Source: an uncultured Eggerthellaceae bacterium (GTDB lineage: Bacteria > Actinomycetota > Coriobacteriia > Coriobacteriales > Eggerthellaceae). Taken from it: a stretch of DNA of 64,000 nt. The position numbers and the translations under genes are program-made. The stretch's first letter is position 1; each line of letters starts with the position of its first letter. Of this stretch, positions 6,940 through 60,257 are shown in pieces. The stretch lies in NCBI GenBank assembly GCA_944320405.1, contig CALUHI010000002.1, forward strand, positions 1 to 64,000, given 5' to 3'. The notes below the pieces were generated by a model. The model was not told the DNA's origin. It worked only from the letters and a program-made list of their open reading frames with translations, and did no database searches.

Positions 6940-6977
6940 TGCGTTCTCGTTTTTGTCTAACAGGTTGAGCATGAGTA

Positions 6978-7125
6978 GCTGAAAAGGGCTGAGGTGCTTC
7001 GCATTCGTGGGATCGTCGGGGCGAAGCGTACTTCGGTACGTGAGCCCCGAGGATCGCACGAAGGCGGAGTGCCTCAGCCCTTTTCAGCGGACGAGTAGTT
7101 CCGCGGGTCGGCAGACCCGCGGAAC
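6978..7125. repeat. Structured intergenic repeat, family 2 copy 1 (two hairpins)
   Basis: A 111-nt hairpin (6978-7088), outer stem GCTGAAAAGGGCTGAGG with its complement and tip CGTACTTCGGTACG, is followed 9 nt later by a perfect 28-nt hairpin (7098-7125; GTTCCGCGGGTC, loop GGCA). The minus-strand end abuts the fabH stop codon. The copy at 41347-41494 has the same lengths and spacing but different, still complementary, stems. Confidence 0.85.
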
Positions 7126-7126
7126 G

Positions 7127-8239
7127 CTAAGCTTCGTACAAGATCGCGCCGCTGGTGAAGCCGCCGCCGAAGCCTACAAGAATTACTTTGTCGCCGCGCT
7201 TGATGCGGCCTTCTTCGTAAGCGTCGGAGAGGGTCATGGGGATGCAGGCAGACGACGAGTTGCCGCGGTGCGCGATGGAGATCTGGAAGCGATCCAGCGG
7301 AAGCTTCATCTTCTTCGCCGCGTACTTGATGATGCGTTCGTTGGCCTGATGGGGCACGATGAACGAGATATCGTCGATGGTGAGACCCGCGCGATCGAGC
7401 ACTTCCTGCACCGCATGATCAAGCGCCTCCACGGCGAACTTGAACACCTTCTGGCCGTGCATGTACAGCGTCTGGCGCGGACGGCCTTCGGCAACCGCCT
7501 CGGTCACGCCCATTTCCTCATCGATGCGCGGCAGACCGGGATCGATCTCCTTCGCAGCCTCGAGGTCGACGCCATTTTTGCTAAAGGGTTGCGGAGCGTC
7601 GAAGGACATGGGGCACGTGAGGGCGTTCGAGTCGTCATCGTCGTTGCGGATGAAGGTGCTCAGGATGCCCGCACGATCGGGATCCCACTCCACCACGGCG
7701 GCACCGGCGCCGTCGCCGAACAGAACGCAGGTGTTGCGATCTTTCCAGTTGGTGATGCGCGTCAGGCGCTCGCCGCCCACCACCAGCGCGCGACGGATGG
7801 GGTTGCGACGCCCCGCCTGGGGCACGCCTGCCGCAGATGCGGCCATCATGGATTCGGCGATGGTCAATCCGTAGATGAAACCCGTGCATGCAGCATTCAT
7901 ATCGAATGCCGCCGCGTTCACCAAACCCAAACGGCGGCGCAGCAGCGCAGCGCACGTGGGCACCATGACGTCGGGGGTTGCCGTAGAGTACACGATCAGG
8001 TCGATTTCCTCGGGGTCGATGCGGCGCTCGCTGTAGTCGGCGTCTTCCCAACCCAGCGCGCGGCGTGCGGCAGCTTCGGCGAGGTCGACGTTGGTCTCGT
8101 CGACGCAGATGCGGCGGGTCTTTATGCCCGTGCGCGTGGTGATCCACTCGTCACTGGTGTCCACCAGCGCCGTCAGATCGTCGTTGGAAACCTCAAGCGC
8201 GGGCAGCGCCTTCCCGCAACCGATGATCGCACAACCCAT
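7127..8239 (-). CDS. fabH: Beta-ketoacyl-ACP synthase III
   Basis: Starts fatty-acid synthesis by condensing an acyl-CoA primer with malonyl-ACP. The 370-residue thiolase-fold enzyme has catalytic Cys118 in NAACTGF, His in VPHQAN (about 300), and an Asn in AHRGNSSSA, a variant of the usual GNTSAA loop. The C-terminal glycine loop GFGGGFTSG is intact. It is slightly longer than E. coli FabH because of a short insertion around residue 140-150 and an acidic segment near 185-200. A promoter-like TATACT sits at 8311-8306, so it probably has its own transcript. No FapR- or FabT-type operator was recognised. Confidence 0.95.
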   Translation of the reverse strand: MGCAIIGCGKALPALEVSNDDLTALVDTSDEWITTRTGIKTRRICVDETNVDLAEAAARRALGWEDADYSERRIDPEEIDLIVYSTATPDVMVPTCAALLRRRLGLVNAAAFDMNAACTGFIYGLTIAESMMAASAAGVPQAGRRNPIRRALVVGGERLTRITNWKDRNTCVLFGDGAGAAVVEWDPDRAGILSTFIRNDDDDSNALTCPMSFDAPQPFSKNGVDLEAAKEIDPGLPRIDEEMGVTEAVAEGRPRQTLYMHGQKVFKFAVEALDHAVQEVLDRAGLTIDDISFIVPHQANERIIKYAAKKMKLPLDRFQISIAHRGNSSSACIPMTLSDAYEEGRIKRGDKVILVGFGGGFTSGAILYEA

Positions 8240-16148: not shown

Positions 16149-16225
16149 ATGAGAAAAAGGGACGGAGGTTTTTTCTCATTTTCGTGTTCGCAAGGACGAG
16201 AAAAAGTGACCGTCCCTTTTTCTCA
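16149..16225. repeat. REPIN-like doublet, TGAGAAAA type
   Basis: A 31-bp palindrome (16149-16179; arms ATGAGAAAA / TTTTCTCAT) is followed in inverted orientation by a second copy ending at 16225. The outer halves TGAGAAAAAGGGACGG (16150-16165) and CCGTCCCTTTTTCTCA (16210-16225) are perfect complements, so the doublet can fold as one hairpin. It lies between the ABC permease and maf. Confidence 0.85.
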
Positions 16226-20172: not shown

Positions 20173-20243
20173 TGAGAAAAAGGGACGGAGGTTTTTTCTC
20201 ATTTTCGACGCGTGATGAGAAAAGCGACTGCCCCTTTTTCTCA
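20172..20243. repeat. REPIN-like doublet, TGAGAAAA type, degenerate second half
   Basis: One full 31-bp copy (20172-20202) is followed by an inverted, more diverged copy (about 20215-20243, ending CCCCTTTTTCTCA). Its last bases TCA give the TGA stop of the histidine kinase gene on the minus strand. Confidence 0.8.
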
Positions 20244-25229: not shown

Positions 25230-25311
25230 ATGTGACAGGGGGCGGTCCTTCTGTCACATCGCAATCCATTCCCTATTATCCAAATGTGACAGACGGGACG
25301 TCCCCTGTCAC
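25230..25311. repeat. REPIN-like doublet, GTGACA type
   Basis: Copy one (25230-25259; ATGTGACAG ... CTGTCACAT) and an inverted copy two (25286-25311; GTGACAG ... CCTGTCAC) lie between cysK and tilS. The outer halves GTGACAGGGGGCG and CGTCCCCTGTCAC are nearly complementary. The GTGACA arms match 10655-10680. Confidence 0.75.
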
Positions 25312-26267: not shown

Positions 26268-26368
26268 TTCCACCACTCCCATCAGTTTCCGCATACGCCC
26301 AACCCGAGACCGCGTCTCAGCACCCGCCACACAGCAAGGCGATCATTCTCGACAAAGTTAGACACGCC

Positions 26369-26482
26369 GGCGGGTTTTGGGGAGGGGGTCCGCGCGCAGT
26401 TCCGCACGAGCCGGAACGCCCAGTGGGCGTTCCGTGCGAGCTCAGGACTGTTTGAGCACGGACCCCCTCCCCAAAACCCGCC
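26369..26482. repeat. Structured intergenic repeat, family 1 copy 2
   Basis: A 114-bp palindrome with perfect 24-bp arms (26369-26392 and 26459-26482, beginning GGCGGGTTTTGGGGAGGGGG). The inner 75 bp match 6841-6918 in reverse orientation, but the outer arms are different from that copy. It starts 15 nt past the stop of the rRNA methyltransferase gene. Confidence 0.85.
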
Positions 26483-26496
26483 GAACAACCTCACAC

Positions 26497-35578: not shown

Positions 35579-35650
35579 ACCTCACCCGCACAGCCGCCGG
35601 CTCCAGCAGGACGACTACGCGCTCAGGTTCGCATGCTTTTCGAAATAATT

Positions 35651-35821
35651 GCCCGTTTTCAGCCGAAGTGCGCTGAAAACGCTGCAGCAGAAGATGCTAA
35701 ACGCACCGATCTTCTTCCGCACATCCCTTTCGCCATATTCTGAACTGGGAAAACGCAATTTCACCAGGCACGCTGCCGTTATTGCATGGGTAAAACCCGC
35801 GCACTTCGGCAAAAAACGGGC
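35651..35821. repeat. Inverted pair of a small palindromic repeat, left flank of the nuclease-like gene
   Basis: Copy 1 (35651-35681) reads GCCCGTTTTCAGCCGAAGTG and on to GCTGAAAACG, a perfect 10-bp stem. Copy 2 (35791-35821) is in inverted orientation with the same GCCCGTTTT and GCCGAAGTGCGC parts. Two more copies occur at 37196-37220 and 37369-37397. The rest of 35682-36053 shows no gene. Confidence 0.7.
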
Positions 35822-36053
35822 ATCGGTGGCGAAAAGCCTGTCGAGCCGCCAAGAAGATGACCTTTATTTTAAACAGAACTTAAACGTTATCTCCAATCGT
35901 GCAATTTTCACGATAAGATAAGCCAAATTCGAGCCAATGCGAGCGCTTCTCTTTGCAATCGCCACCGAGTTGCCCATCGCGAAACGCACTCCCTCGTTTC
36001 GCTTCACAACGCTCGCAAGATCCTCGCCATCCAAGGGATCACAGGAGTGCACT

Positions 36054-41239: not shown

Positions 41240-41346
41240 GGCGTAAAGTCTACTACACAAACGCGCCCACGTCGGCAGTCAAGCCGGCGCAGGCGCGTTG
41301 TGGCAAACACCGCAATAACGAAAACTTTACAGGTCGAACATAAGTA

Positions 41347-41494
41347 GCTGAGGGTTTCTGTGGTGCCGGAGATTCGCGGGATCGCAAGGGCGCCGCGTGC
41401 TTCGGTACGCAAGCCCTTGGGATCGCGCGAAAATTCGGTGCCACAGGAAGCCTCAGCGGACGAGCGGTTCCGGCGGTCGGCAGACCGCCGGAAC
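41347..41494. repeat. Structured intergenic repeat, family 2 copy 2 (two hairpins)
   Basis: A 111-nt hairpin (41347-41457) and a perfect 28-nt hairpin (41467-41494; GTTCCGGCGGTC, loop GGCA) 9 nt later. Lengths, spacing and position next to a minus-strand stop codon (clpB) equal those at 6978-7125. Stem bases differ in both strands so that pairing is kept, for example GAGGGTTTCTGTG / CACAGGAAGCCTC here. Confidence 0.85.
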
Positions 41495-53502: not shown

Positions 53503-53724
53503 CCCCTTCACCCCGGAACTGCTGCCCATGGCGCCGGCCAGGAAGGGGATCCTCGCCTGCAACCATGGCAGCTCTCCGCTTTCGCGACAGTGCACCGGAT
53601 GTTCTCCAGAGCCCCAGGCCACATGTCGGCGGGAACCGACACGCGCCTTCGGCGGATTCCCCTTTCAGCCCGGCGCTTCCCGGCGCCTGAGCGGGCTTAC
53701 TGATGAAAACCGCGCCTCTGCCAT
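53503..53724 (-). ncRNA. Lysine riboswitch with Shine-Dalgarno-sequestering platform
   Basis: The aptamer is 53724-53564. P1 pairs ATGGCAG (53724-53718) with CTGCCAT (53570-53564). Consensus elements in order are GGCAGAGGCGCG, GGCTGAAAGGGGA then ATCCGCCGAAGG, and CTGTC ... GGAGAG. Downstream, CCCCTTC (53547-53541) can pair with GAAGGGG (53509-53503), the ribosome binding site. The 3' side of P1, GCTGCCATGG, can instead pair with CCATGGGCAGC between them. This predicts translation off with lysine bound. Confidence 0.88.
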
Positions 53725-54147
53725 TGTTTCAGTGAGGACACCATAAAAGCTTTTCGAAGAAAGGGAAAGACTTTCGCGGTCAATCGTGCGGAAGTTTCCG
53801 CGAACGTCGGCTTTTGCATTTGCCGACGAGCAAAGAGCCCGGTGATTTCGTCCTGGATCCTTTTCAGAAACAGCCCTTTGCGTATTGATTTCGATGTGCT
53901 CCACTTTCACTCAAATTATAATCTGACACCAATGTCATTGCGCCATCCTAATATTCGTGCAAATATGAATAGCAAAGATCCCCATCAAAGCGCCAACTTA
54001 AAGGCGGTAATGTTTTTGCGCGCTTAATCCAGCCGTGCCATTCACTACCGGAGCTTTTGACGTGTGCTTTCAAACTTTAATCACCGATATTTGGAGTTGT
54101 GCGCGTCATGAAAGACGAATACCACCGCTTTGAGAAAGCGAGCACTT
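53725..54147. other. Intergenic interval, no gene seen
   Basis: About 420 bp between the riboswitch and the LuxR-type gene. GC content falls toward the right side. Frames across it are short and not protein-like. No clear promoter for the riboswitch transcript was identified, apart from TTGACC near 53795 without a good -10. Confidence 0.5.
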
Positions 54148-60076: not shown

Positions 60077-60175
60077 GCACGAACGGCTTGGCTTCTGGCA
60101 AGGAAAAGGGGCAAGAAAAGAGAGAGGGATGGGGATGGGCCCGACCCCCTTTTCTCACCCCCAGCCCACGGACAC

Positions 60176-60214
60176 GCCGATGGGAAAAAGTGACTGTCCC
60201 TTTTTCTCATCGGC
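60176..60214. repeat. REP-like palindrome, TGAGAAAA type, extended arms
   Basis: GCCGATGGGAAAAAG and CCCTTTTTCTCATCGGC bracket TGACTGT. A more degenerate half (CCCTTTTCTCACCC) lies at 60147-60160, so this may be a decayed doublet. Confidence 0.7.
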
Positions 60215-60257
60215 GTGGGACAATGAGGGGCGCAACCTTCCGAGATTGGAGCCTCGC

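Follow-up and report, generated by a model that had tools for sequence, protein, structure and literature searches.

A 165-nt two-hairpin repeat family located at gene 3' ends in Coriobacteriales

Two structured elements were examined in a 64,000-nt stretch of DNA from an uncultured Eggerthellaceae bacterium (the window). We concluded, with an estimated probability of about 60%, that both belong to a Coriobacteriales family of non-autonomous, mosaic, REP/BIME-like hairpin repeats of ∼165 nt that behave according to the following proposed mechanism. The long hairpin would be the recognition structure for single-strand DNA transfer by a putative enzyme supplied in trans; the unit would be placed at gene 3' ends exposed in replication or transcription, and it would be tolerated or kept there since it lies between genes. 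Within the mRNA, the long duplex, together with the small hairpin located at the stop codon, may influence how ribosomes are released, how translation is coupled or how the upstream cistron decays from its 3' end, without transcription being terminated. The parts of this reading differ in strength: a mobile repeat of the REP/BIME type is quite probable, a useful effect on the upstream mRNA has about even odds, and movement as single-stranded DNA with the + strand folded falls a little short of even. As far as could be checked, the 165-nt repeat was apparently undescribed before, and it occurs across an order of gut bacteria at tens of copies per genome.

Anatomy and distribution of the repeat

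The earlier note had described each copy as a hairpin of 111 nt and one of 28 nt, separated by 9 nt and following the stop codon of a minus-strand gene, fabH or clpB, and we found both copies at the same coordinates with this arrangement. The unit is 165 nt long and not confined to the hairpins, because a conserved 17-nt 5' tail (CAGGTTGAGCATRAGYA) stands before the long hairpin. Copy A, a complete unit at 6961..7125 on the + (folded) strand, matched the covariance model R1 with 184.1 bits over positions 1-165 of 165. Its 5' tail CAGGTTGAGCATGAGTA (6961..6977, +; family form CAGGTTG... in a 34-copy alignment and in the 108-copy consensus) is followed by the long hairpin at 6978..7088 (+), an inverted repeat with arms 87% complementary and the predicted apex CGTAC TTCG GTACG, and by the small hairpin at 7098..7125 (+), for which sequence and predicted fold give a 12-bp stem and a GGCA loop. 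The fabH gene (beta-ketoacyl-ACP synthase III; NCBIfam TIGR00747 and NF006829) occupies 7127..8239 on the - strand, and its stop codon starts 1 nt past the end of copy A. Copy B is likewise a complete unit (41330..41494, +; CM R1 180.1 bits), with the long hairpin at 41347..41457 (+) and the small hairpin, loop GGCA, at 41467..41494 (+); the stop codon of clpB (ATP-dependent chaperone ClpB; NCBIfam TIGR03346; 41498..44218, -) starts 3 nt past its end.

Copies from the same genome share this layout: a 17-nt tail starting with CAGGTTG, then the long hairpin of 111 nt, whose apex is CGTAC-TTCG-GTACG, then a spacer of 7-10 nt and finally the small hairpin of 28 nt (GTTCCGNCGG..CCGNCGGAAC). The stems measure 12 bp in the small hairpin and about 45 bp in the long one. 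The GGCA loop, taken to be fixed when only the two window copies were compared, varies across the family (GGCA, GGAA, GTCA, GTTA and others).

A blastn search with copy A detected at least 34 copies in the genome of origin (2.0 Mb, 43 contigs). The covariance model search in related genomes, which the earlier note had proposed as a check, returned many further copies, so the refuting outcome named there, a search that finds none, did not occur. The family was present in at least 89 of the 119 sampled genomes of Eggerthellaceae (at least 34 of 48 genera) and, class-wide, in at least 98 of 298 sampled genomes from four families, all in one order; these counts are lower bounds because few candidates were scored per genome. 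The element had no match in the plasmid collection, and Rfam at gathering and permissive thresholds gave nothing meaningful matching it. Neither Rfam nor the open-access papers that were searched contained a description of these Coriobacteriia repeats.

Other repeats and an RNA element were noted in the window. A second repeat family (16150-16225, 20173-20243 and 60173-60217) consists of inverted repeats built on TGAGAAAAAGGGACGG / CCGTCCCTTTTTCTCA, a motif that also adjoins several copies of the 165-nt element (loci L009, L011 and L014). There is a palindrome GTGACAGGGGGCGGTCCTTCTGTCAC at 25232-25311, and inverted repeats unrelated to the element lie at 35632-35840 (42-nt arms 125 nt apart) and 26368-26483 (31-nt arms, 94% complementary). 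A minus-strand lysine riboswitch (Rfam RF00168, 93.7 bits) was identified at 53561-53728.

Compensatory pairing and the folding strand

Next, we examined whether the element is conserved by structure over sequence, as had been claimed from the two window copies, using 108 copies gathered with model R1 for the pairing statistics. Paired stem cells amounted to 97.0%, compared with 78.2% in shuffles and 31-46% with slid partners; as the alignment was fitted to the model, the pairing counts lean to structure, and the margin over the controls is very large. Taken with the copy number and the model scores of the two window copies, this pairing lies well outside what chance would produce. Changes on both sides were present in 45 of the 53 pairs (32 of 53 in a smaller set of 32 copies), and the covariation score of the 108 copies was 0.537, against 0.182 after shuffling and at most 0.102 with slid partners. 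The structure-over-sequence claim therefore passed the statistical covariation check, and it survived the objection, raised in advance by the earlier note, that the stem differences might prove non-compensatory. In the particular stems compared in that note, however, not every difference is compensatory, as the stem of copy B contains a G.G as well as a T.G.

Covariation by itself is not proof of RNA selection, because template switching corrects imperfect palindromes in E. coli and likewise makes the arms match (PMC7202029). Selection is argued for since a strand asymmetry is present in the long hairpin and absent in the small one. On the + strand of the long hairpin, G.T cells outnumber A.C cells by 371 to 43 (an A.C on the + strand would read as G.U on the opposite strand), whereas the small hairpin, which serves as an internal control, has 19 G.T and 16 A.C. 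With RNA parameters, the + strand also gives the more stable long hairpin in 108/108 copies (mean -86.8 vs. -67.4 kcal/mol), DNA parameters agree in all 108, and tandem UG/GU positions are retained. The G.T excess and the stability together indicate that the long hairpin is constrained on the strand that is antisense to the adjacent gene. The favoured fold of the long hairpin is that of the + strand, and the data fit RNA and single-stranded DNA equally. The minus-strand location of the two genes, as first noticed, was correct, but the better-folding strand is the plus strand, antisense to those genes. Template-switch correction may contribute to the covariation but does not explain the strand bias.

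Gene 3' ends, orthologous sites and replichore orientation

To describe the position of the element, we analyzed 40 loci of two complete genomes (G070 and G075), in which genes were called with a simple script based on codon usage. In 49 of 51 copies, an antisense gene has its stop codon at the 3' side of the element, and the start of a co-directional gene lies at the opposite side in 39 of 51. Among 129 oriented copies, 87 have the stop -1 to 7 nt from the element and 15 have it exactly at -15, inside the loop of the small hairpin. The stop falls within 5 nt in 29 of the 33 copies with measurable gaps, compared with 4.5 predicted for random placement in the gap. Some copies adjoin the 3' ends of tRNA or SRP RNA genes, 7-13 nt away. 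A general habit of post-stop hairpins was rejected as the source of this pattern (39/541 other genes vs. 36/37 element-bearing genes), and so was a special choice of stop codon beside the element, the usage being the same as in the rest of the genome.

More than 20 clusters were found in which the same gene carries copies in different species or genera, among them SecY, GreA, HtpG, RplX, EF-P, Tsf and GAPDH (names beyond those assigned by NCBIfam profiles were recognised from sequence). Element identity at these shared genes is mostly at the level of random pairs (mean 0.69) and sometimes 0.84-0.94; the rplX site is kept in three genera with an element identity of 0.87-0.94. As is expected of MITEs, orthologous sites were found both filled and empty. 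The moeA/mog site is filled in four species of genus g41 (G075, G111, G104 and G094) and carries a mosaic version with a hybrid hairpin in a fifth, G042; the two genes abut and the site is empty in G070 (TAA G ATG) and G103 (TAG ATG). A second element at this locus is absent from G111 and G104. Among named genomes, the closest ones that have a homologous fabH belong to Candidatus Aphodovivens (Coriobacteriia), and copy A is absent behind fabH in the sister species Ca. Aphodovivens excrementavium and avistercoris. Duplication of the target was not visible, the moeA/mog site included; no autonomous copy was found, nor was a parent transposon in a non-exhaustive search.

Mosaic structure is apparent in the hybrid hairpin of G042 and in one copy (L025, 2052-2293) that has a 77-nt insert with two more hairpins in its apical loop region and a tRNA gene adjacent. 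In genus g41, tandem hairpin modules often precede the element (left flanks of L104, L106 and L107 in G075); each module begins with CAGGTTG and ends with ...GCGCATAAC or ...GCGCGAAAAC, forming a mosaic hairpin array.

These data bear on whether the element could be a vertically inherited 3'-end or intercistronic RNA element of the host, one whose small hairpin and long duplex in the mRNA would protect the upstream message, be a target of RNase III or uncouple the translation of neighbouring genes, with rare duplication and loss sufficient to account for its distribution. The anchoring at stop codons and at tRNA and SRP RNA 3' ends, the predominance of sites between co-directional genes (39/51), and the presence at the same housekeeping genes in different genera, above all the rplX site, are in keeping with such an element. 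The sense RNA, on the other hand, folds the long hairpin more weakly in every one of the 108 copies, with wobbles favouring the antisense strand by 371:43, most elements at orthologous sites are no more similar than random pairs, and the sites of close relatives are empty. We regard this explanation as unlikely, though one to be taken seriously. The REP/BIME-like reading has its own weak points in the same observations: recurrence across genera at the same genes, with a few elements 0.87-0.94 identical, could mean vertical descent with losses, and neither a target-site duplication nor an autonomous copy was found.

The copies with the stop at -15 are of interest for the origin of the arms. The C-terminus of the gene is then usually VPSA, VPTA or similar and is encoded by the element arm. 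In three of these copies (L114, L075 and L116), one arm equals the final codons of the gene and the other is an inverted copy thereof; judged from the sequences of these three cases only, the arms look like the result of hairpin-templated copying. The GAPDH C-terminus VKDLVKILL also occurs in G053, whose element has the usual arms and stands 10 nt after the stop. It is rather unlikely that the unit is a replication-oriented, strand-specific DNA element that targets gene 3' ends (stop codons and RNA ends), rebuilds its small hairpin from the last codons of the gene and is moved by a single-strand mechanism. Alternatively, the covariation as a whole might be a by-product of DNA repair, in which template switching copies arm onto arm and pairing persists without selection. 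The three copies above, with VKDLVKILL the same in G053, and the established palindrome correction in E. coli (PMC7202029) speak for this possibility. Such repair would not yield a G.T excess over A.C restricted to the long hairpin, nor would it yield the retained tandem UG/GU, the fixed spacing and the fixed place, and we consider it improbable as the full explanation.

In the complete genomes G042, G070 and G075, the 5' to 3' direction of 122 of the 128 copies points toward dnaA, with the terminus of G042 placed to fit; partial lists for G103, G066 and G005 have the same origin-ward polarity. The polarity surpasses gene bias, as only 73-78% of genes are on the leading strand (binomial p about 5e-8 or less). 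From this orientation, the folded strand is the leading-strand template (nascent lagging-strand sequence). The bias could point to a replication-polarity signal that is recognised in single-stranded DNA, for example a site for chromosome segregation or one related to the replication fork. Two of the three anti-polar copies examined still follow the gene-stop rule, so the orientation to the gene is primary, and the remaining excess may come from a preference for housekeeping genes, which are mostly on the leading strand. We regard a polarity signal as very unlikely. The better folding of + strand RNA would suit an antisense or trans-acting RNA made from that strand, but the left flanks are unrelated, so that no common upstream promoter was visible in the flank comparison, and there was no Rfam match; we find this alternative very doubtful indeed.

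An intrinsic transcription terminator, one of the options first offered for the two window copies, has little to recommend it: a GC-rich hairpin stands right after stop codons, and between both genes in convergent pairs, but the sense strand has no U-tract after either hairpin, two copies (L011 and L012) come after a U-tract terminator that the upstream gene has of its own, and copies lie within rplX-rplE, secY-adk and moeA-mog, the operon-internal ones at rplX-rplE and secY-adk arguing against a strong terminator. A role in mRNA stability, another of the options first offered, may apply.

Comparison with known repeat systems

The family is a large one, found in an order of bacteria common in the gut. 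It unites stop-codon anchoring, a single orientation relative to the gene, polarity with respect to the replichore and a one-strand fold, an unusual combination. This combination makes it possible to test how REP-like elements lacking a RAYT are mobilized and what causes palindromic repeats to accumulate at stop codons, and a covariance model is now supplied for the family. For annotation, it should be kept in mind that the element may encode C-termini such as VPSA or VPTA.

A RAYT (TnpA-REP, PF01797) was considered as the mobilizing partner and ruled out, since its distribution does not track the element. There was no PF01797 match in the element-rich genomes G042, G066, G070 and G103, and the single RAYT-like gene of the genome of origin is on contig C11, which has no copies. 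The lack of a detected transposase, and of PF01797 in several element-rich genomes, weighs against the REP/BIME-like reading. Around that RAYT-like gene (locus L038, around 1459-2214), a VTEGPSPVT-encoding repeat recurs several times, which is perhaps the true REP partner of the transposase. The ends of IS200/IS605 elements fold the lagging-strand template, whereas here, judged by orientation only, it is the leading-strand template that folds, a further point against the preferred reading. An attC-like cassette site was also considered and dropped, as copies are scattered singly at housekeeping genes and inspection by eye showed no core-site consensus.

REP sequences of the GTAG and CGTC super-families are high-copy intergenic palindromes, often <20 bp from a gene 3' end; their ends may supply the stop codon, they are grouped in mosaics, and CGTC REPs have no known transposase (PMC3733652). 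The element shares with them a high copy number and a location mainly downstream of genes. It differs in being a 165-nt composite of two dissimilar hairpins in fixed order and in a single orientation to the gene, in its 12-bp and ∼45-bp stems (8-9 bp in REPs), in its strand-biased fold and in its Coriobacteriales-wide spread. The defining REP form, a 20-40 bp palindrome with an unpaired terminal GTAG/CGTC tag, was not observed: the bases before the small hairpin are variable, and GCGTCG sits in the spacer and not at the foot of the small hairpin, with CGGACGAG in its place in most copies of the genome of origin. A GNAG before each hairpin was considered as a REP tag and rejected, being restricted to the genus of the window. 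Certain REPs of E. coli close to stop codons, within 15 nt, stall ribosomes according to work cited in PMC12306157; a proximity of -1 to 7 nt is the rule here, and the stop is sometimes in the loop. As for the suggestion of a mobile REPIN-like unit, the mobile character and the REP-like location and copy number agree with it, and so do the non-autonomous, structured nature and the dozens of copies per genome, but the unit is not a REPIN: it has two different hairpins in fixed order instead of two inverted REPs, and neither GTAG nor PF01797 goes with it.

Bacterial MITEs that fold as RNA (Correia/NEMIS, ERIC, BOX and RUP) are 100-170 nt long, contain a long near-perfect hairpin, are intergenic and are likely co-transcribed with their neighbours. 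The element is similar to them in size, long hairpin, intergenic location and likely co-transcription, and differs by its two hairpins, its anchoring at stop codons in one orientation and the absence of a visible target-site duplication. We concluded that, judged by tag, size, inverted pair and RAYT, the repeat is by definition neither a REP nor a REPIN, yet functionally it resembles REP/BIME sequences and hairpin MITEs.
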